Source of the DNA: a virus | Direction: 5' to 3' (one strand) | DNA length: 30,920 bases | Virus record (IMG/VR): IMGVR_UViG_3300044678_001378 | Location: 1 to 30,920 of that record | Shown: positions 9,328-30,707 of the stretch, piece by piece | How positions within the stretch are numbered: position 1 is the stretch's first letter | Layout: each line of letters begins with the position of its first letter | Made by a program: the position numbers and the translations under genes | The notes under the pieces: model-generated | Told to the model about the DNA's origin: nothing | Seen by the model: only the letters and a program-made list of their open reading frames with translations | The model's database searches: none

Positions 9328-12300
9328 CTATGCCTGTGCTTCAGTCCAGGATAGACGTCCAAGCACAGATGCAGAAGCAGATGGGCTTAGGTTAGTTACG
9401 GCAATTGTTAATGTGTCTGGACCATCTGGGTAGATGTTTACGTTGGATGTTGCTCCACCGCCACCCAAAATAGAGTTACCTAGATCACGAACAGGGTTAA
9501 GATCAACGCTGTTAGCACCTGATCCTACGAAGAAACCAGCAGTTATCTCACCACCAGAAATAGTTGTACTTCCTCCTGCATAGTTTGCAATTTGAGCAAG
9601 ACTTGAGTTTTGAACTGTTGTTACGTTATTTACAGCATTTGTCCAGTTTGTGGTTGAAGAAGGTGTTCCATTTAGCACTGCAGTAATTAAAAGATTTGAG
9701 TTAGCAGTATTGGTTGTAATATCTAGGGCACGAAGAACTAACTGCATTCTATTAATAAGTTCTCTTGCTCCAAAAGCACCAACAGTTCCTTGATCAATAG
9801 AAGGTGCTACACGAATTGAAAACAATGCTCTGGTTTGAGTTGCTGGCACACCAGTAAATCCTGTTTGACCATAAGTAAATACAAGAGATTTATCATCGTC
9901 AAATCTTCCATCCATAATTACAGATGTACCCCAATGAGATATAGTTGGTGCATAAGTTGGGAATGCTTGTTCAACTGCAACTGGTGCTGTTGCTGAAAAA
10001 GTAAATGATTGACCAGTTGTTGCACCCATTGGTGGGAATAACACATCTCCAGGATTGCTTCCTGTTGCTGCATTACTAAATGTTAAAGTTGTTCCAACAA
10101 TATTTGTTACAAAAGTTCCTTCAGGAAATGATGCACTTACAACTCTTTGACCAATCTGAATACCAGAAGCACTTACAACAGTACCACTATTAGTGCCACT
10201 TGTAATTGTTACAGTTACAGCAGTTGTTATACCTGCTTGTGCTCTAGTTAAACCACTAAATGCACTTGCGGACAATCCTGTATAGTTAACATATTCATAT
10301 TTAGAAGCATCTCTGATACATAATGTTCCACTTGGTGGAAATCCAGAAGTACTTGTTACAGGAAGAACGGTATCAGATGCACCAACGCTTGATGTAATTG
10401 TTGTTACATATGGAAATGTGATTGATTCGTAACGTGCTGGTAAGTTACCAGAACGCATATATGCTTCGTTATTAACATTATTATTTACTTGTTTGTGAAC
10501 ATAAAATACGTTTCCATTTGGACCTCTAAGTCCCCAACGAACAAATCCAGCACCGTACCAAGAATAATCTATATAAAACATTTGCATTTTAGTTAAATCT
10601 AAATTGTATCCAGAAGGACCAGTTCCATCACATTTATCTAAATTAAATTGTGATTGAGGAACTTTTGTATCTACCGTTTTAGAAACAATTACATGTGAGG
10701 CAGTTGCTCCTCTGTATGAAGGACTAATTGTCATAGAAGTATCTGATGCAATATCTTGCACTTTATATGACTGACCACGGATAACAATGAAATCACCTGG
10801 TGATAATTGTTTTGCAAGTATTGTTGGAAATGCTGCAACAGTTTGTGATACAGTGTTTGAACCGTTAGTGACGCTAACTCTACCCGCTAGTTGAAAAGTA
10901 GAAGATCTTTTTACTGCATACAAGGTTCTTCCGTCAAATTCAAAAAATAAACCATTTTGATCATCAAATATTCCTAGTGAGTTTGCTGCTCCGTACCAAG
11001 AATCAATTGCTGCATAGTATGGACCAGAGCCGATTCCAGAAGCAGGAATTGATAATGCTGTATATTGAAATGTATTAAATCCTGTTACAGAATTAACAAC
11101 AAATGTTCCATTATAGGCTGGGTCGGTAACACCACTAATAATGATTGTTGTGCCTGGAAGAATGTTATGCTTCTCTTTTGTTTGAACAGTTACTAATGAT
11201 CCAACTGATGTGATTGAATCTAATTGAAGATTTGGTTTTAATATTGTTCCAGAACTTGCTTGAATACCTTTACCTGATTGGTAACGGAAATAACGGCGAG
11301 TTTGGCGAATCATTTGCTCATAATTTGAACTTGAGTTTGAAGAAAAAATTACTCCACCATCAAAAGGTCTATGTAGAACTTGACCTTGAGGTAGATTATA
11401 AATAAATGCTGATGTTGCAACCAAAGTTCCAGTTGGAGCAGCAGCGGTATAATATCTAAATTGTGTTGGGCTAATAATTGTTGTTACTATAAAAGAACCA
11501 TTTGGTGCGTTTGTGCTAGCAGTTGTTCCAATTACAACAATTTCATTTCCAATAGATAATCCATGAGGAACTGTTGTTGTTACAGTAATTTGAGTTCCTG
11601 AGTAAGACATAGTTGGTGCTAAACCTATTCTTGCACTTGAATATTGTGATCCTTGAAAAATTGCGGTTTTATTACTATCAAAAATTGCAGTTACACCTGT
11701 AGAGTTTGCTGCACGAGCAGTGTATGTGGCTGAAGCAGTACCTCCACCAGTTTCAATCGTAAAGTTTCCATTTGCAATAGATAAGAATGTATCCTGAACA
11801 TATATTGCTGTACCATTTGCTGGAAATGTTCCAGAGCCAAGAACAACTGTGACTACTTTAGCGTTGGCAAGCATTGTCATAGATGTAATGTTAGGTATTT
11901 GAATAGATGAAGGGAAAGCAAAAGGTCTTTGATTAATCATTGCTAAGTTTTCCCACTTAGTAATCTGTGTACCATATTCAAAATCGGTATCAATAAGTGC
12001 TTGTGGTGTAGTTGTTCTAAGTTTATTAGTTGGATCAAGGAATGCTTCTGAAGGAGTAAATATTTCTTCATTTTGATCGACAATTATTTGTAATTTATCG
12101 GTAGAAGCCATAGAGGTAGTATTATAATTTAAAACAATAGTTGTTGTTTCTACCATTGCCGAGTTAATATTATTAGTATAAGCAGTTGCTTTTAATGATG
12201 GGTCTGAAAAGTTGTATATAACTTGATTAGTGGTTACGTTAGTAATTAATGCTAATTTTTCCCTGGGAATAAATTTACTGTTAATAACAATAGTTCTTGT

Positions 12301-12348
12301 TGCTGGGTTGAAAGTATAATCTAATCTTTCTAACACTTTTCTTGACAT
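9328..12348 (-). CDS. Large virion structural protein, tail or baseplate fibre
   Basis: A 1006-residue protein, the largest in the window, Thr/Ser/Asn-rich and beta-structured throughout. It carries repeated immunoglobulin-like units with the pattern HGL/HNI...G..I.I.GT....NG.F.V..I....F.Y (about residues 250-300 and 385-430). A conserved aromatic block IDYSWYGAGFVRWG, then NNNVNNEAYMRSGNLPARYE, is at about 590-640. This block resembles a large structural protein of T4-like cyanophages and related aquatic phages (recalled, not searched). The C-terminus ends LSPSASASVLGRLSWTEA. It sits 7 bases after the Mtd-N-like gene and before the 59-residue connector gene, consistent with a distal tail or baseplate fibre component. 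Confidence 0.75.
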   Translation of the reverse strand: MSRKVLERLDYTFNPATRTIVINSKFIPREKLALITNVTTNQVIYNFSDPSLKATAYTNNINSAMVETTTIVLNYNTTSMASTDKLQIIVDQNEEIFTPSEAFLDPTNKLRTTTPQALIDTDFEYGTQITKWENLAMINQRPFAFPSSIQIPNITSMTMLANAKVVTVVLGSGTFPANGTAIYVQDTFLSIANGNFTIETGGGTASATYTARAANSTGVTAIFDSNKTAIFQGSQYSSARIGLAPTMSYSGTQITVTTTVPHGLSIGNEIVVIGTTASTNAPNGSFIVTTIISPTQFRYYTAAAPTGTLVATSAFIYNLPQGQVLHRPFDGGVIFSSNSSSNYEQMIRQTRRYFRYQSGKGIQASSGTILKPNLQLDSITSVGSLVTVQTKEKHNILPGTTIIISGVTDPAYNGTFVVNSVTGFNTFQYTALSIPASGIGSGPYYAAIDSWYGAANSLGIFDDQNGLFFEFDGRTLYAVKRSSTFQLAGRVSVTNGSNTVSQTVAAFPTILAKQLSPGDFIVIRGQSYKVQDIASDTSMTISPSYRGATASHVIVSKTVDTKVPQSQFNLDKCDGTGPSGYNLDLTKMQMFYIDYSWYGAGFVRWGLRGPNGNVFYVHKQVNNNVNNEAYMRSGNLPARYESITFPYVTTITSSVGASDTVLPVTSTSGFPPSGTLCIRDASKYEYVNYTGLSASAFSGLTRAQAGITTAVTVTITSGTNSGTVVSASGIQIGQRVVSASFPEGTFVTNIVGTTLTFSNAATGSNPGDVLFPPMGATTGQSFTFSATAPVAVEQAFPTYAPTISHWGTSVIMDGRFDDDKSLVFTYGQTGFTGVPATQTRALFSIRVAPSIDQGTVGAFGARELINRMQLVLRALDITTNTANSNLLITAVLNGTPSSTTNWTNAVNNVTTVQNSSLAQIANYAGGSTTISGGEITAGFFVGSGANSVDLNPVRDLGNSILGGGGATSNVNIYPDGPDTLTIAVTNLSPSASASVLGRLSWTEAQA

Positions 12349-15756: not shown

Positions 15757-16854
15757 TTAAGTTTTAATCCAAGGAGTATATTTATTAAATGCTGGAATTA
15801 CTGGAGATTGTCTAGTTAATGTTGATGTTCTTAATTGTCCAACATTACCAGCAGCAACCCACAAATTATCTCCATAGGCAACGGAGTTAATATACGCTAA
15901 ACCAGGGTTTAAATTACTTTGAAAAAAATTTGAGGTTTGAGTTGTCCAGGTTGTTCCATCTGTTGAAGTTCTTAATTGTCCAACACCAGCACCACCCACA
16001 ACCCACATGTTATTTCCATAGGCAACGGAATAAAGATCAGTTGTCCCAAAGTTTGAGGTTCGGGTTGTCCAGGTTATTGCATCTGTTGAAGTTCTTAATG
16101 ACCCATTTGAACCACCTGCAACCCACAGGTTATTTCCATAGGCAACGGAGTAAATTGATCCTGAAAAGTTTGAGGTTCGGGTTGTCCAGGTTGTTCCATC
16201 TGTTGAAGTTCTTAATGCCGCAGTACCAACAGCAACCCACAAATTATCTCCATAGGCAACGTAGTTAATATCACTTGTCCCAAAGTTTGAGGTTCGGGTT
16301 GTCCAGGTTGTGGCATCTGTTGAGGTTCTTATTTGTCCACCATTGCCACCTGCAACCCACAGGTTATTTCCATAGGCAACGGAGTTAATCTGAGTTGTCC
16401 CAAAGTTTGAGGTTTGTGTTGTCCAGGTTATGGCATCTGTTGAGGTTCTTATTTGTCCACCATTGCTACCTGCAACCCACAGGCTATTTCCATAGGCAAC
16501 GGAGAAAATATTACTTGTCCCAAAGTTTGAGGTTCGGGTTGTCCAAGTTATTGCATCTGTTGAAGTTCTTAATGCCCCACTTGAACCAACTGCAACCCAC
16601 AGGTTATTTCCATAGGCAACGGAGTAAATAATACCATTTGATAGAAATCCTGAGTCTCGGGTTGTCCAAATATGTAGTGATTCAAAATCTTTATAATTTT
16701 TAAAAGATTTTATTCTTGGATCAGTATCACTATAAACAATATCTGATCTAATCCAACCAGGACCAGGAGATCCTAATTCTGTTAATCTAAATATTACATC
16801 ACCAAAACGGTATTTATTTGTATTTTTAGTACCTTTAAAATTACCATTGTTCAT
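15757..16854 (-). CDS. Seven-bladed beta-propeller fibre protein (copy 3)
   Basis: A 365-residue protein made of a unique N-terminal region of about 60 residues (MNNGNFKGTKN, then a PGPGWIRSD motif) and seven tandem repeats of about 40 residues with the pattern ITWTTRTSNF-G-x-SVAYGNNLWVAGG-x-GQIRTSTDA. Seven WTT...W-V...RTS repeats should close as a seven-bladed propeller of BNR/YCF48 type. The last blade has an insertion (NFFQSNLNPGLAYI). The C-terminus is a hydrophobic, aromatic tail (FNKYTPWIKT). Propellers of this type commonly bind sugars or proteins, so this is a candidate receptor-binding head. It overlaps the preceding copy by 4 bases (ATGA). Confidence 0.85.
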   Translation of the reverse strand: MNNGNFKGTKNTNKYRFGDVIFRLTELGSPGPGWIRSDIVYSDTDPRIKSFKNYKDFESLHIWTTRDSGFLSNGIIYSVAYGNNLWVAVGSSGALRTSTDAITWTTRTSNFGTSNIFSVAYGNSLWVAGSNGGQIRTSTDAITWTTQTSNFGTTQINSVAYGNNLWVAGGNGGQIRTSTDATTWTTRTSNFGTSDINYVAYGDNLWVAVGTAALRTSTDGTTWTTRTSNFSGSIYSVAYGNNLWVAGGSNGSLRTSTDAITWTTRTSNFGTTDLYSVAYGNNMWVVGGAGVGQLRTSTDGTTWTTQTSNFFQSNLNPGLAYINSVAYGDNLWVAAGNVGQLRTSTLTRQSPVIPAFNKYTPWIKT

Positions 16855-18815
16855 TTTTTAATCCACCCAAAAATAGGTCCTATTTTTAAAAATGGAATAG
16901 TAACTTTCGTAAAATCAGAAGTTCTTAATAACCCACTTGAACCAACTGCAACCCACAGGTTATTTCCATAGGCAACGGAGTTAATACTACCTACCCCAAA
17001 GTTTGAGGTTTGGGTTGTCCAGGTTGTGGTATTTGTTGAGGTTCTTATTTGTCCAACATCGCCAACAGCAACCCACAGGTTATTTTCATAGACAACGTAG
17101 TTAATATCACTTGTCCCAAAGTTTGAGGTTTGGGTTGTCCAGGTTGTGGCATCTGTTGAGGTTCTTATTTGTCCAGACCGACCACCTGCAACCCACAGGC
17201 TATTTCCATAGGCAACGGAGACAATAATAGTTGTCCCAAAGTTTGAGGTTCGGGTTGTCCAGGTTATTGCATCTGTTGAAGTTCTTAATTCCCCAGTTGA
17301 ACCACCAGCAACCCACAAATCATTTCCATAGGCAACGGAGTAAATAGTACTTGACCCAAAGTTTGAGGTTCGGGTTGTCCAAGTTATTGCATCTGTTGAA
17401 GTTCTTATTTGTCCACCATCACCACCTACAACCCACAGGTTATTTCCATAGGCAACGGAGTAAATAGTACTTGACCCAAAGTTTGAGGTTCGGGTTGTCC
17501 AGGTTATTGCATCTGTTGAAGTTCTTATTCTTCCACCTACACCACCTGCAACCCATAGGTTATTTTTATAGGCAACGGAGTAAATAGTACTTGTCCCAAA
17601 GTTTGAGGTTCGGGTTGTCCAGGTTATTGCATCTGTTGAGGTTCTTATTTGTCCACCATTGCCACCTGCAACCCACAGGCTATTTCCATAGGCAACGGAG
17701 TTAATAGTACTTGTCCCAAAGTTTGGGGTTTGGGTTGTCCAGGTTATAGAACTAGGAAAATATTGTTGTAATAAACTAGATAATTTACTATTATTTGTGA
17801 TTAAAGAACCGTCTGCTTTAACCCAATCAGGACCTGGTGAAAAATATCCAAATCTTACTTCTCCAGTTTTGTACACTGATAAATTATTATTAGTACCGCT
17901 TAAATTACTTTTATTCATTTTGTAAAACCTCTAACAATATTATTAAATATAAATGGTGGTGCCGCTCTTTTAACGGTTGAAGTTCTTAATTGTCCAAAAT
18001 TACCAACAGCAACCCACAAATCATTTCCATAGGCAACGGAGTTAATACTTGTTTGCCCAAAGTTTGAGGTTTGGGTTGTCCAGGTTATTGCATCTGTTGA
18101 AGTTCTTAATCCCCCATTTGAAGCACCTGCAACCCACAGGTTATTTCCATAGGCAACGGAGTTAATATCAGTTGTAAAGTTTGACCTTTGTGTTGTCCAA
18201 GTTATTGCATCTGTTGAAGTTGATAAATTCGGAACATTACCAACAGCAACCCACAAATTATCTCCATAGGCAACGGATAAAATATTAACATTTCCTGAAT
18301 TAAAACCTGAAGATCTACTTGTCCAGGTTATTGCATCTGTTGAAGTTCTTAATTGTCCAGAATCACCAACAGCAACCCACAAATTATCTCCATAGGCAAC
18401 GGAGTTAACGCCACCTGATCCCAAAAAGTTTGAGGTTTGTGTTGTCCAGGTTATTGCATCTGTTGAAGTTCTTATTTGCAAACTCTCACCACCTGCAACC
18501 CATAGGTTATTTCCATAGGCAACGGAGTTAATCTGAGTTGTCCCAAAGTTTGAGGTTCGGGTTGTCCAGGTTATGGCATCTGTTGAAGTTCTTAATGCCC
18601 CAGAATTACCAACAGCAACCCACAAATCATTTCCATAGGCAACGGAGTTAATAGTACTTGTCCCAAAGTTTGAGGTTTGTGTTGTCCAGGTTATTGCATC
18701 TGTTGAAGTTCTTATTTGTCCACCACCGCCACCTGCAACCCACAGGTTATTTCCATATGCAACGGAAAAAACACCACTTCCCCCAAAGTTTGAGGTTTGT
18801 GTTGTCCAAATTGCT
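15835..18815 (-). repeat. Array of 120-bp propeller-blade repeats across three genes
   Basis: About 21 direct repeats with a 120-bp period (40 codons) run through the three propeller genes. Segments such as CAAAGTTTGAGGTTCGGGTT and TTTCCATAGGCAACGGAG recur almost unchanged, while short positions between them vary. Conservation at the DNA level, not only the protein level, means that recombination or slippage between repeats could shuffle, add or remove blades. Confidence 0.9.
16851..17918 (-). CDS. Seven-bladed beta-propeller fibre protein (copy 2)
   Basis: A 355-residue protein with a short N-terminal part (MNKSNLSGTNN, PGPDWVKADGS) followed by exactly seven 40-residue repeats (WTT..TSNFG....SVAYGN.LWVAGG.GGQIRTSTDA). 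It ends in an aromatic tail, IGPIFGWIKK. Blades are highly uniform; differences concentrate in the two to four residues after NFG and after VAGG, which form the exposed loops of a propeller. Coupled by ATGA to copies 1 and 3. Together the three genes give 21 near-identical blades. Confidence 0.85.
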   Translation of the reverse strand: MNKSNLSGTNNNLSVYKTGEVRFGYFSPGPDWVKADGSLITNNSKLSSLLQQYFPSSITWTTQTPNFGTSTINSVAYGNSLWVAGGNGGQIRTSTDAITWTTRTSNFGTSTIYSVAYKNNLWVAGGVGGRIRTSTDAITWTTRTSNFGSSTIYSVAYGNNLWVVGGDGGQIRTSTDAITWTTRTSNFGSSTIYSVAYGNDLWVAGGSTGELRTSTDAITWTTRTSNFGTTIIVSVAYGNSLWVAGGRSGQIRTSTDATTWTTQTSNFGTSDINYVVYENNLWVAVGDVGQIRTSTNTTTWTTQTSNFGVGSINSVAYGNNLWVAVGSSGLLRTSDFTKVTIPFLKIGPIFGWIKK

Positions 18816-19003
18816 GCATCGTAGTAAGAAATTCTATTAACAATATTAATACCATCTAATGTTTTATATCTATTATCAACTGGAAATCCTTCAAGTGTAT
18901 ATCTAATTTCATCAAAATCATTAATATCATTAGGTTCTGAATTTATTTCAGACGATGTTGAAATACCGTCAAATTTGGTACCTTTAAGGGTTCCTTTGTT
19001 CAA
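17915..19003 (-). CDS. Seven-bladed beta-propeller fibre protein (copy 1)
   Basis: A 362-residue first member of the propeller trio. The start codon is TTG at 19003 (MNKGTLKGTKFDG); it shares the MNK-x-L-x-GT opening with the other two copies, which argues for this start. A unique 65-residue N-terminal region precedes seven repeats. Blades 4 and 5 carry extra residues (SNFLGSGGVN, SGFNSGNVNIL) and blade 5 has LSTSTDA in place of RTSTDA. The end is FNNIVRGFTK. A GGGGG stretch about 10 bases upstream of the TTG, overlapping the stop of the 19017 gene, may act as a weak ribosome site. Confidence 0.85.
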   Translation of the reverse strand: MNKGTLKGTKFDGISTSSEINSEPNDINDFDEIRYTLEGFPVDNRYKTLDGINIVNRISYYDAAIWTTQTSNFGGSGVFSVAYGNNLWVAGGGGGQIRTSTDAITWTTQTSNFGTSTINSVAYGNDLWVAVGNSGALRTSTDAITWTTRTSNFGTTQINSVAYGNNLWVAGGESLQIRTSTDAITWTTQTSNFLGSGGVNSVAYGDNLWVAVGDSGQLRTSTDAITWTSRSSGFNSGNVNILSVAYGDNLWVAVGNVPNLSTSTDAITWTTQRSNFTTDINSVAYGNNLWVAGASNGGLRTSTDAITWTTQTSNFGQTSINSVAYGNDLWVAVGNFGQLRTSTVKRAAPPFIFNNIVRGFTK

Positions 19004-25786: not shown

Positions 25787-25912
25787 TTAGTAACCTGCCT
25801 TATCCATGGCACAATCGCCACATAGTAGGACATTTGCTAAATCAAATCTATGCACTCTAATCATGTCCTCACACTTAGAGCAGTATGCTGTTAAATACAT
25901 ATTTTTTTTCAT
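25787..25912 (-). CDS. 41-residue zinc-ribbon protein
   Basis: Encodes MKKNMYLTAYCSKCEDMIRV with a second pair in LLCGDCAMDKAGY. The CxxC-x17-20-CxxC layout makes a treble-clef or ribbon zinc site filling the whole protein. The ending CGDCAMDKAGY closely matches the end of the plus-strand gene product at 27602 (CYDCAMDKVGA), so the two are paralogues in opposite clusters. Its ATG overlaps the end of the gene upstream. Confidence 0.65.
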   Translation of the reverse strand: MKKNMYLTAYCSKCEDMIRVHRFDLANVLLCGDCAMDKAGY

Positions 25913-26070
25913 TTAACTAATAACCCCTTTCTTAATTCGCCTAATCTAATTAGGTGACAATCTAAACATAGAAACATCATCTTACATAGATTGTCTGTGT
26001 GACACATCTTAGTTACAGAGGTTTCACATCCTACACATAGGAAAGTTATATCTACAATTTGTTTATTCAT
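25909..26070 (-). CDS. 53-residue cysteine-rich protein
   Basis: Encodes MNKQIVDITFLCVGCETSV, a Cys/His middle (MCHTDNLCKMMFLC) and DCHLIRLGELRKGLLVK. CVGC and CLDC pairs suggest a zinc ribbon; extra Cys/His residues may add a second ligand set. It is the first gene of the cluster 26070-25079. AAAGGA is its ribosome site, and the leader upstream contains the structured element at 26106-26169. Confidence 0.6.
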   Translation of the reverse strand: MNKQIVDITFLCVGCETSVTKMCHTDNLCKMMFLCLDCHLIRLGELRKGLLVK

Positions 26071-26105: not shown

Positions 26106-26169
26106 GAGGTTAGTTTACTTGCTAGGCTCATACCCTTTCGGGTCTTATTTGCTAGGCTCACCTAACCTC
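26106..26169 (-). ncRNA. Structured repeat element, copy 1 (leader)
   Basis: Outer stem GAGGTTAG (26106-26113) with CTAACCTC (26162-26169); inside are two copies of TTGCTAGGCTCA (26119-26130, 26149-26160) flanking the hairpin ACCC-TTTC-GGGT. On the minus strand the hairpin reads CCC-GAAA-GGG, a GNRA tetraloop. The predicted +1 of the minus-strand promoter at 26180-26208 is at about 26173, so this element would form the 5' end of the transcript carrying the genes 26070-25079. Confidence 0.65.
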
Positions 26170-26179
26170 TTATACTTAT

Positions 26180-26208
26180 ACTCTAGCAGGGGGGTCTGAC
26201 ATTTTTGC
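26180..26208 (-). promoter_or_regulatory. Early promoter P1 (minus strand)
   Basis: Minus strand: TGC-TAGAGT extended -10 (-10 at 26180-26185), a spacer ATGTCAGACCCCCCTGC and a poor -35 (GCAAAA, 26203-26208). The spacer shares TGTCAGACCC with three other promoters. A CRP-like dyad is centred about 64 bases upstream of the -10, which could compensate for the poor -35. Drives the cluster 26070-25079. Confidence 0.5.
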
Positions 26209-26240
26209 TATCTAATGTCTGATTTATCCCATTTAGATTT

Positions 26241-26256
26241 TGTGACCTTGGTCACT
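26241..26256. promoter_or_regulatory. CRP/GlxR-like dyad A
   Basis: TGTGA-CCTTGG-TCACT: a TGTGA-N6-TCAC dyad matching the CRP/GlxR consensus except for the last base. Centre 26248.5, about 63.5 bases upstream of the P1 -10. It overlaps the outer stem of structured element copy 2 (GACCTTGGTCA), so it could be an RNA stem instead. Confidence 0.5.
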
Positions 26257-26314
26257 TATTCGCTAGGCTCATTCGGACATTTCCGACTTATTTGCTAGGC
26301 TCATTGACTAGGTC
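26244..26314 (-). ncRNA. Structured repeat element, copy 2
   Basis: Imperfect outer stem GACCTTGGTCA (26244-26254) with TGACTAGGTC (26305-26314); two repeats, TCGCTAGGCTCA (26260-26271) and TTGCTAGGCTCA (26292-26303), flank the hairpin TCGGA-CATT-TCCGA. Same plan as copies 1 and 3 with different stem sequences. Lies upstream of promoter P1. Confidence 0.6.
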
Positions 26315-26398
26315 TAATCTCTATTTAGTTATATTCTAAACCTATCAGAGGATATCCTAAAAGTCAAATCGACACGCCGTGTTCCTTAAAGTTTTTTG

Positions 26399-26441
26399 TG
26401 TGACCTTCCTCACACGCCGCGCGGGGGCTGTCCGATTTGTC
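26399..26441. repeat. 43-bp direct repeat, copy 1, with CRP/GlxR-like dyad
   Basis: A perfect 43-bp direct repeat of 26878-26920. It opens with TGTGA-CCTTCC-TCACA (26399-26414), continues through a GC-rich stretch CGCCGCGCGGGGG and ends with TGTCCGATTTGTC. CGACACGCC lies about 20 bases upstream (26370-26378). A diverged version follows dyad C at 29548. Confidence 0.85.
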
Positions 26442-26506
26442 TGTCTCTATCTTATTTGCTAGGCTCATCCCTTTCGGGCTTATTTGCTAGGCTCATATAG
26501 AGACAG
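26441..26506 (-). ncRNA. Structured repeat element, copy 3
   Basis: Perfect 10-bp outer stem CTGTCTCTAT (26441-26450) with ATAGAGACAG (26497-26506); two TTATTTGCTAGGCTCA copies with cores at 26456-26467 and 26484-26495, flanking CCC-TTTC-GGG (CCC-GAAA-GGG on the minus strand). It lies 8 bases past the stop of the 26515 gene, so it would be the 3' untranslated end of that small operon. Confidence 0.7.
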
Positions 26507-26514
26507 GCTAGGGG

Positions 26515-26616
26515 CTATTCGCCTCTAAACATCTTGTAGAACTGGTCGTAATCAGGTTCTACACCCTCTGGGAGTTCAGACTCCCAAGCCTCTAGGGCTT
26601 CAACGTATCCTCTCAT
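26515..26616 (-). CDS. 33-residue acidic hypothetical protein
   Basis: Encodes MRGYVEALEAWESELPEGVE, then a PDYDQFYKMFRGE end. Very acidic, probably helical. Its ATG overlaps the stop of the gene upstream (TAATG), with GAGGTGAAATA as ribosome site, so it is translationally coupled. No family recognised; the length is too short for function prediction. Confidence 0.55.
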   Translation of the reverse strand: MRGYVEALEAWESELPEGVEPDYDQFYKMFRGE

Positions 26617-26815: not shown

Positions 26816-26844
26816 ACTCTATAGGGGGGGTCTGACAAAAACAG
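26816..26844 (-). promoter_or_regulatory. Early promoter P2 (minus strand)
   Basis: Minus strand: CTGTTT (26839-26844), 17-base spacer TTGTCAGACCCCCCCTA, TAGAGT (26816-26821). Same spacer motif as P1. The CRP-like dyad in the 43-bp repeat (26878-26893) is centred about 64.5 bases upstream of the -10, nearly the same distance as in P1. Drives the genes 26777-26515. Confidence 0.5.
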
Positions 26845-26860
26845 GGCGACACGCCGTATC

Positions 26861-26877
26861 TGCGTTACACTTTCTTT
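26861..26877 (+). repeat. 17-bp repeat TGCGTTACACTTTCTTT (copy 1)
   Basis: Exact 17-base match to 27218-27234. In both places CGACACGCC precedes it by 4-5 bases. Part of the repeat set at the divergence point. Confidence 0.8.
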
Positions 26878-26920
26878 TGTGACCTTCCTCACACGCCGCG
26901 CGGGGGCTGTCCGATTTGTC
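26878..26920. repeat. 43-bp direct repeat, copy 2, with CRP/GlxR-like dyad
   Basis: Identical to 26399-26441 over 43 bases, including TGTGA-CCTTCC-TCACA (26878-26893) and TGTCCGATTTGTC. CGACACGCC (26847-26855) and the 17-base repeat directly precede it. It ends 3 bases before the stop of the 26924 gene. Confidence 0.85.
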
Positions 26921-26923
26921 GGA

Positions 26924-27118
26924 CTATAGCCTCACAAACGTACGCCAGTTAATTCCACAAGCCTCTTGGAATCTTATATCGCTAAAGTTTTCATTATAGG
27001 CTAAAAATAAATCACCAAATTCCATAACGATTTCTTCAAAAGTTGTTTGAGGAATTTCATCTTGAAATTGTTTTAATATTTTAGCCACATGTTCGAAGTG
27101 TTGTTTTGTGTATGTCAT
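26924..27118 (-). CDS. Small actinophage-type hypothetical protein
   Basis: A 64-residue helical protein: MTYTKQHFEHVAKILKQFQ at the start and FSDIRFQEACGINWRTFVRL at the end. The pattern KxHFExxAxIxK...FxxxxFxxACGI recurs in small proteins of many actinobacterial phages (recalled, not searched); function unknown. AAAGGA is 6-11 bases upstream of the ATG. It is transcribed leftward from the promoter at 27147-27175 at the divergence point. Confidence 0.7.
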   Translation of the reverse strand: MTYTKQHFEHVAKILKQFQDEIPQTTFEEIVMEFGDLFLAYNENFSDIRFQEACGINWRTFVRL

Positions 27119-27146: not shown

Positions 27147-27175
27147 AATCTATCACATACCCCCGACAAAACCAA
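27147..27175 (-). promoter_or_regulatory. Early promoter (minus strand) for the 26924 gene
   Basis: Minus strand: TTGGTT (27170-27175), 17-base spacer TTGTCGGGGGTATGTGA, TGA-TAGATT (-10 at 27147-27152). The spacer begins with TTGTC as in the other early promoters. Confidence 0.5.
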
Positions 27176-27177
27176 GT

Positions 27178-27244
27178 CGACACGCCGATCCTACGCCCGC
27201 GCGGCGACACGCCCGAGTGCGTTACACTTTCTTTGCGACACGCC
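27178..27244 (+). repeat. CGACACGCC iteron cluster at the divergence point
   Basis: Three copies of CGACACGCC at 27178-27186, 27205-27213 and 27236-27244, spaced 27 and 31 bases, and two more at 26370-26378 and 26847-26855. Two sit in a GGCGACACGCC near-dyad or GCGACACGCCG context. The 17-bp repeat (27218-27234) lies between the last two. It lies between divergent early promoters and next to AT-rich DNA, as origins or regulator-binding clusters often do. Confidence 0.65.
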
Positions 27245-29508: not shown

Positions 29509-29537
29509 ACATTAGCACATGGGTCTGACAAGGTCAA
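29509..29537 (-). promoter_or_regulatory. Early promoter (minus strand) for the 29329 gene
   Basis: Minus strand: TTGACC (29532-29537), 17-base spacer TTGTCAGACCCATGTGC, TGC-TAATGT extended -10 (29509-29514). The CRP-like dyad C is centred 41.5 bases upstream of the -10. Confidence 0.55.
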
Positions 29538-29547
29538 GCCCTGCTCG

Positions 29548-29563
29548 TGTGATGTTGGTCACA
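29548..29563. promoter_or_regulatory. CRP/GlxR-like dyad C
   Basis: TGTGA-TGTTGG-TCACA, a perfect TGTGA-N6-TCACA dyad. It lies between divergent promoters: 41.5 bases from the -10 of the leftward one and 74.5 from the -10 of the rightward one. A diverged version of the 43-bp repeat tail (ending TGTCCGATTTGTC at 29580-29592) follows it. Confidence 0.65.
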
Positions 29564-30691: not shown

Positions 30692-30707
30692 TGTGACCAA
30701 TATCACA
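30692..30707. promoter_or_regulatory. CRP/GlxR-like dyad D
   Basis: TGTGA-CCAATA-TCACA, a perfect TGTGA-N6-TCACA dyad in the gap after the 30509 gene. Its centre is 52.5 bases upstream of the -10 of the promoter at 30729-30757, in helical step with the other dyads. Confidence 0.65.

Follow-up and report, generated by a model that had tools for sequence, protein, structure and literature searches.

Genomic locus of the element

The window, i.e. the whole stretch of DNA that was analysed, is a 30,920-base IMG/VR virus record. Three copies of the element studied here lie within it, all on the minus strand. The copies and their immediate surroundings are listed below; bit scores refer to the covariance model R1 introduced in the next section.

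25909..26070, minus strand: 53-aa ORF, the first behind the three copies; Cys-rich small protein of unknown function without a PHROG match
26106..26169, minus strand: copy 1, double module (outer stem, module pair around CUAG, GAAA hairpin), 64.2 bits
26175..26203, minus strand: promoter-like hexamers for copy 1, ATGTCA (26203-26198), 17 nt, TATAAG (26180-26175); sequence reading
26241..26256, no strand assigned: CRP/GlxR-like palindrome TGTGACCTTGGTCACT with one mismatch, overlapping the 3' arm of copy 2 and upstream of the copy 1 promoter
26244..26314, minus strand: copy 2, double module, 68.1 bits
26339..26367, minus strand: promoter-like hexamers for copy 2, TTGACT (26367-26362), 17 nt, TAGGTT (26344-26339); sequence reading
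26399..26414, no strand assigned: CRP/GlxR-like palindrome TGTGACCTTCCTCACA, centred ~40 nt upstream of the -35 hexamer of the copy 2 promoter
26441..26506, minus strand: copy 3, double module, 69.2 bits
26515..26616, minus strand: 33-aa ORF MRGYVEALEAWESELPEGVEPDYDQFYKMFRGE, upstream of copy 3

On the RNA strand (minus), the copies are composed as follows, from 5' to 3'.

Copy 1: arm GAGGTTAG 26169-26162; core UGAGCCUAGCAAAUAA 26160-26145; hairpin gACCC-GAAA-GGGUa 26144-26131; core UGAGCCUAGCAAGUAA 26130-26115; arm CUAACCUC 26113-26106
Copy 2: arm 26314-26305; core 26303-26288; hairpin 26287-26272; core 26271-26256 (3' end GCGAAUAA); arm 26254-26244
Copy 3: arm 26506-26497; core 26495-26480; hairpin 26479-26468; core 26467-26452; arm 26450-26441

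An initial annotation of the window had proposed three copies with the order outer stem, repeat, hairpin, same repeat and closing stem. This plan is confirmed and all arms listed there are present. The claim that each copy carries the same conserved repeat holds only in part: one core of copy 1 contains AAGUAA and one core of copy 2 contains GCGAAUAA, so that the 16-mer does not occur six times in identical form. The GAAA tetraloop, previously pointed out in two of the hairpins, is frequent among the elements collected here and is not obligatory. Compared with dinucleotide shuffles, the minus strands of copies 1, 2 and 3 reach folding z-scores of -3.57, -3.78 and -3.56, respectively, and at most one of 200 shuffles (0-1/200) folds as well as the real copy. 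The plus strand likewise folds, and folding energy alone therefore cannot identify the transcribed strand.

The promoter calls in the window are based on sequence reading and on the occurrence of the same promoter class across loci, without experimental support. The 5' base of copy 1 coincides with the start site predicted from the ATGTCA-17-TATAAG promoter, which is consistent with the earlier placement of this copy at the predicted 5' end of a small-gene transcript. The start codon of the 53-aa ORF (26070) is located 44 nt beyond the last core of copy 1. Copy 3 begins 8 nt past the stop codon of the 33-aa ORF (26515-26616, minus strand), as had been noted before. Leftward promoter-like sites near 27169 and 26838, at least two in number, lack the element, i.e. 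only some promoters carry it.

Related elements in other viral loci

The exact core 16-mer was found in at least 120 viral stretches, mostly in two occurrences with a spacing of 25-34. This number is a lower bound, and so are the counts for two further core variants. The pooled set comprises at least 293 loci including the window, with 427 elements; at least ~290 IMG/VR loci besides the window thus carry a related element. As the collection was seeded with core 16- and 17-mers, the invariance of the loops is partly imposed by the search, while the covariation of the stems is not inflated by it. The phages bearing the element are related to each other, and locus counts are therefore not independent.

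The covariance model R1 was built from 57 elements (alignment A1). It yields scores of up to 76 bits and matches the element in nearly all loci searched. Among 33 long records (54-116 kb), 31 contain one to three elements each according to this model; the remaining two contain chance 16-mers only. The IMG/VR records 2671180694 and 2744054579 were rejected as 16-mer matches without an element, as were three other non-metagenome records that share an identical, single and unpaired match.

A scan of 84,980 prokaryote genomes (257 Gb) with the exact 16-mer of one core variant returned 57 single matches, fewer than estimated for 257 Gb of uniform composition, and no paired element. Using blastn, the region and two element-like queries gave only short chance matches in 50,697 phage records. 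Cultured Planktophila phages (PMC10202952) were absent among the matches in the phage collection, and no cultured phage with the element was found. Our search of the open PubMed Central literature did not reveal a description of the motif.

The initial annotation knew of no named RNA family with this plan and suggested searches of Rfam and of viral sequences with a covariance model. The latter recovered the element in nearly all loci searched, as described above; the former returned no relevant family. No Rfam 15 model matches the window at the gathering threshold, and at E<=5 only Ysr209 is reported (18.5 bits versus a threshold of 59), between copies 1 and 2. In eight other loci bearing the element, Rfam 15 detected tRNAs only.

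A recurring internal-loop module

The element is built from a recurring internal loop, 5'-(R)UGAGC / CAAAUAA(R)-3'. This loop is used singly, head to head around a helix of 4-5 bp (the form found in the window), in tandem or as a triple. Weak R1 matches proved to be of three kinds: single-loop hairpins of the form stem-UGAGC-helix-loop-helix-CAAAUAA-stem (e.g. L192, L199 and L091); tandem loops of the same orientation (L045 and L083); and elements with a third loop, with its own varying helix, outside the double one (L018, L037, L215 and others). A purely structural scan identified 265 module matches, compared to none in Markov-simulated sequence.

What had been labelled a conserved repeat is accordingly better described as two internal-loop modules placed back to back, an interpretation inferred from sequence alone; the three-dimensional fold of the loop is unknown. 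The arrangement resembles a direct repeat because CTAG, the commonest core, is palindromic.

Covariation of stems, hairpins and core helix

The secondary structure of the element is conserved, with outer stems, inner hairpins and core helix all covarying. RNAalifold recovers the proposed pairs from the alignment alone, including the CTAG helix. In the 57-sequence alignment, 91.8% of 570 pair cells are standard pairs, two-sided changes are observed in 140 cells versus 42.7 in shuffles, and pairing falls to 21-49% if the partner positions are shifted. The ten highest MI-APC scores among 1653 column pairs (58 columns) correspond exactly to the ten proposed pairings; two of these are purine-purine contacts flanking the loops, in which A.G is swapped for G.A. 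The 59 distinct outer arm pairs are 91% Watson-Crick at the four inner positions, and the 35 distinct inner hairpins are Watson-Crick in 102 of 102 pairs.

A wider set contains 385 double elements, and in all but five of these one core helix is the exact reverse complement of the other (380 of 385). Eight sequences of two lengths were found: CTAG/CTAG, CTAC/GTAG, CTTAG/CTAAG, CTAAG/CTTAG, CTAT/ATAG, CTAAT/ATTAG, GTAG/CTAC and CTAGG/CCTAG. The suggestion that the core CTAG could self-pair is thereby supported, as it is replaced elsewhere by complementary CTAC/GTAG, CTTAG/CTAAG, CTAT/ATAG, CTAAT/ATTAG or GTAG/CTAC. The claim of a selected structure, made from covariation among the three copies, holds strongly on homologues. 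It would have been refuted by a lack of homologues with compensatory changes; such homologues exist. Between the two options left open before, RNA or cruciform DNA, RNA is favoured by a promoter just upstream, a start codon just downstream and a fixed orientation and, weakly, by the excess of G-U over A-C pairs on the predicted RNA strand (10 versus 3).

Position in leaders and neighbouring genes

The element occupies non-coding leaders, where it is mostly preceded by a sigma-70-like promoter and followed by a start codon. Of 88 upstream clusters, 37 satisfy a strict promoter rule, compared with 6 of 102 downstream controls. The distance from the end of the -10 box to the first loop base is mostly 25-44 nt. 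Downstream there is a ribosome-binding site followed by a start codon, and when a gene is close by, mostly 22-66 nt separate this codon from the last core. Class B loci have a second promoter downstream of the element and ahead of the gene, whose start codon is ~65 nt beyond the core; the element is therefore not needed on every transcript. About nine elements are intercistronic and follow closely behind a stop codon, as copy 3 of the window does. Most of these nine show no obvious promoter that would belong to them alone, and some elements lack a closely following gene.

The first genes behind the element are many unrelated small ORFs that do not form a single gene family. Among the near-element proteins of the window and its neighbours that were compared with PHROG, a single one had a match; this was weak and its function is unknown. 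In dozens of phages (e.g. L001, L018 and L255), the gene next to the class B element on its downstream side encodes a conserved orphan protein of 61-65 aa (MTYTVTLETFSGSTKKINLASKGAVAQF...); no PHROG or isolate-phage homologue of it was found. A coding repeat or uORF was rejected as an identity for the element, since module spacings modulo 3 are distributed 62/107/119 over 0, 1 and 2 and are not multiples of three.

Where elements occur on both strands of a locus, 62 arrangements are divergent and none convergent, mostly 1-2.5 kb apart; as these phages are related, the count overstates independence. Up to five elements are found in one leader (L277), and arrays of the type promoter-element-promoter-element occur. 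An intrinsic terminator is often present 340-950 nt behind the element. The unit closed by such a terminator usually has one to four small genes, and about half of the time the gene beyond the terminator lies on the other strand.

CRP-like sites and promoter-region boxes

CRP/GlxR-type palindromes (TGTGA-N6-TCACA) are present not only near copies 1 and 2 but also at window positions 26878-26893, 29548-29563 and 30692-30707. Across the 293 loci bearing the element, 809 exact TGTGA-N6-TCACA sites were counted versus ~3 expected, and control palindromes gave 0-7. The site centres prefer distances of 18, 29, 35, 39-41 and 45 nt upstream of -35 hexamers. Judging from site counts and spacing, these phages appear wired to a CRP-family activator of the host. 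In class B elements (L001, L002, L041 and others), the inner hairpin also reads as a CRP-like site, and the -35 hexamer of the next promoter follows ~35 nt downstream; this stretch may possibly double as an RNA hairpin and a DNA activator site.

Further boxes were observed in promoter regions. Those around GGGGGTCTGACA (TGTCAGNCCCCC on the minus strand) are located at window positions 26190-26201, 26826-26837 and 29519-29530, and the box CGACACGCCG at 26370-26379, 26847-26856 and 27178-27187. Both GGGGGTCTGACA/TGTCAGNCCCCC and CGACACGCCG are common to other phages bearing the element. A 64-nt block containing GTGTGACCTTCCTCACACGCCGCGCGGGGGCTGTCCGATTTGTC occurs in two leaders (26386-26449 and 26865-26928) with 89% identity and could represent a duplicated promoter or activator region.

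Probable hosts

WhiB, which is diagnostic of actinobacteria and their phages, is encoded in 18 of 33 records (PF02467). The GP88 protein of the window (PF17338) has homologues almost only in Mycobacterium and Streptomyces phages, with up to 57% identity. Together, the WhiB and GP88 genes indicate actinobacterial hosts. The median GC content of the loci is 37%. The hosts are likely freshwater low-GC actinobacteria (Nanopelagicales), with a habitat inferred to be freshwater from some IMG sample numbers, not from metadata. Cultured Nanopelagicales phages of ~39 kb exist (PMC10202952) and have not been tied to the element.

Two other regions of the window are worth recording. A 1006-aa structural protein (9328-12348) shares ~45% identity with T4-like cyanophage virion structural proteins and sits in a phage that is otherwise actinophage-like (GP88). 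Three consecutive proteins of 355-365 aa (15757-19003) consist of WTTRTSNFGTSTIYSVAYGNNLWVAGG-type repeats and may be beta-propeller tail or adhesin proteins.

Proposed function

We propose that the element is a new cis-acting leader RNA of phages and that an as yet unidentified protein docks at its loops and determines what becomes of the mRNA. We assign this reading a probability of roughly 45%; its mechanism is inferred and its function untested. The element would act as a structured RNA in the leaders of small-gene operons of probable low-GC freshwater actinobacterial phages, with each loop docking a protein made by the phage or the host, for which no partner is known. Docking of a protein is inferred because the loop bases are almost invariant, the helices vary freely and the number of loops is flexible; flexible copy number and the absence of a gene theme make a trans-acting protein a better candidate than a metabolite. 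A dimeric protein would match the head-to-head form. A dimeric binding partner had already been suggested in the initial annotation and is not shown by our data, nor is transcription of the copies.

Since the element adjoins the ribosome-binding site and copy 1 lies at a predicted 5' end, control of translation or stability is favoured: from a docking position close to the 5' end and immediately ahead of the ribosome-binding site, the protein would most likely set one or the other during infection. Genes with a second promoter downstream of the element may be expressed from transcripts both with and without it. Against the docking model stand the lack of a known transcript, protein partner or phenotype, the intercistronic copies and the second promoters of class B.

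A bolder reading, which we consider somewhat less likely than not, is that the UGAGC/CAAAUAA loop is an undescribed modular motif that many phages of freshwater actinobacteria have in common, serving as a common post-transcriptional switch for divergent small-gene operons, via a dedicated protein or by direct contact with the host polymerase or ribosome. The element is called new because neither Rfam 15 nor annotated phages nor the open papers searched contain it, and work elsewhere could exist. To our knowledge, nothing is known of regulation in phages of such probable freshwater actinobacterial hosts, and these phages have barely been cultured. A module found in ~290 sampled virus loci, which is a lower bound, would provide a handle on host takeover by these phages and an RNA tag by which they could be recognized in metagenomes; structural biology would gain a new recurrent RNA internal loop to study.

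Alternative explanations

The main rival, which remains possible, is a put-like processive antiterminator, where the nascent RNA of the element, alone or with a factor, would modify host RNA polymerase on divergent operons. In favour of it, the element is ~60-75 nt long, near promoters, divergent, not gene-specific and found in promoter-element-promoter-element arrays, often with an intrinsic terminator at the distance given above. However, these terminators mostly end units of one to four genes and are followed in about half of the cases by a gene on the opposite strand, so that read-through is not obviously needed. Elements are also found in intercistronic gaps, a short distance ahead of start codons, and put RNA folds into two stem-loops while the element forms one rod.

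A trans-acting or decoy RNA that is set free or builds up and titrates a host RNA-binding protein or nuclease, or works in the manner of a type III antitoxin RNA, is considered unlikely. Reiterated modules, up to five elements in a leader (L277), the variety of downstream genes and the absence of paired cellular copies from the prokaryote genomes scanned (with one core variant) would fit such a role. On the other hand, only one to three strong elements are present per 60-115 kb record, and a pure decoy would not need the consistent placement just before the ribosome-binding site.

There is very little to recommend a small-molecule riboswitch with the internal loop as its pocket. Near-invariant loop bases inside variable helices and the 5' leader position are compatible with it, but the expected coherent set of metabolic or transport genes is not found, the downstream genes being unrelated small ORFs without a metabolic theme. 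Moreover, Rfam gave no match, no expression platform is seen, and the loops occur back to back and as triples.

A DNA-level element (cruciform, single-stranded origin hairpin or operator) is considered very unlikely: paired arms could extrude, and class B inner hairpins and some 3' arms coincide with CRP-like DNA palindromes, but an operator does not need core-helix complementarity maintained through eight sequences, the predicted RNA strand tolerates G-U better than A-C, and the orientation is fixed relative to promoter and gene.

Comparison with known systems

The putL and putR RNAs of phage HK022 are ~70 nt long and located behind PL and PR (PMC9378689). They act on the host RNA polymerase and suppress termination and pausing via the zinc-binding domain of its beta-prime subunit. 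Like the element, put RNA is a structured RNA near the promoters of divergent phage operons and is not tied to a single gene. A location downstream of divergent phage promoters also applies to the element, given the divergent pairs and the promoter-like hexamers upstream. The two differ in that put RNA comprises two adjacent stem-loops, whereas the consensus of the element is one rod with internal loops; in addition, the hosts differ and there is no evidence of read-through for the element.

The manA and wcaG motifs of T4-like cyanophages are likewise candidate structured RNAs of aquatic phages derived from metagenomes. wcaG RNAs adjoin metabolic genes (PMC2864571), unlike the element, and no Rfam model matched the latter.

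The stoperators of cluster A mycobacteriophages are short oriented repeats in small intergenic gaps and serve as DNA repressor sites without paired arms. The element shares with them this type of repeat and its location, likewise in actinophages; in contrast to stoperators, it covaries as a helix. A DNA operator or stoperator is expected to be base-specific without requiring a complementary partner, and this is not what is seen, as the core helices remain complementary in 380 of 385 double elements despite sequence change.

In the UAA/GAN internal-loop motif, UAA on one strand faces GA on the other. The loop of the element also has UAA facing GA on the opposite strand, but it is longer (UGAGC/CAAAUAA), and the likeness is a lead only.

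T4 RegA sites and the MS2 coat-protein hairpin are RNAs bound by protein near a ribosome-binding site, and the coat protein binds as a dimer. The element resembles these phage translational operators as an RNA site near the ribosome-binding site, with a protein partner that is inferred and unidentified. It differs from them in that the known operators are single hairpins or unstructured, whereas the element is a reiterated internal loop found across many genes and phages.
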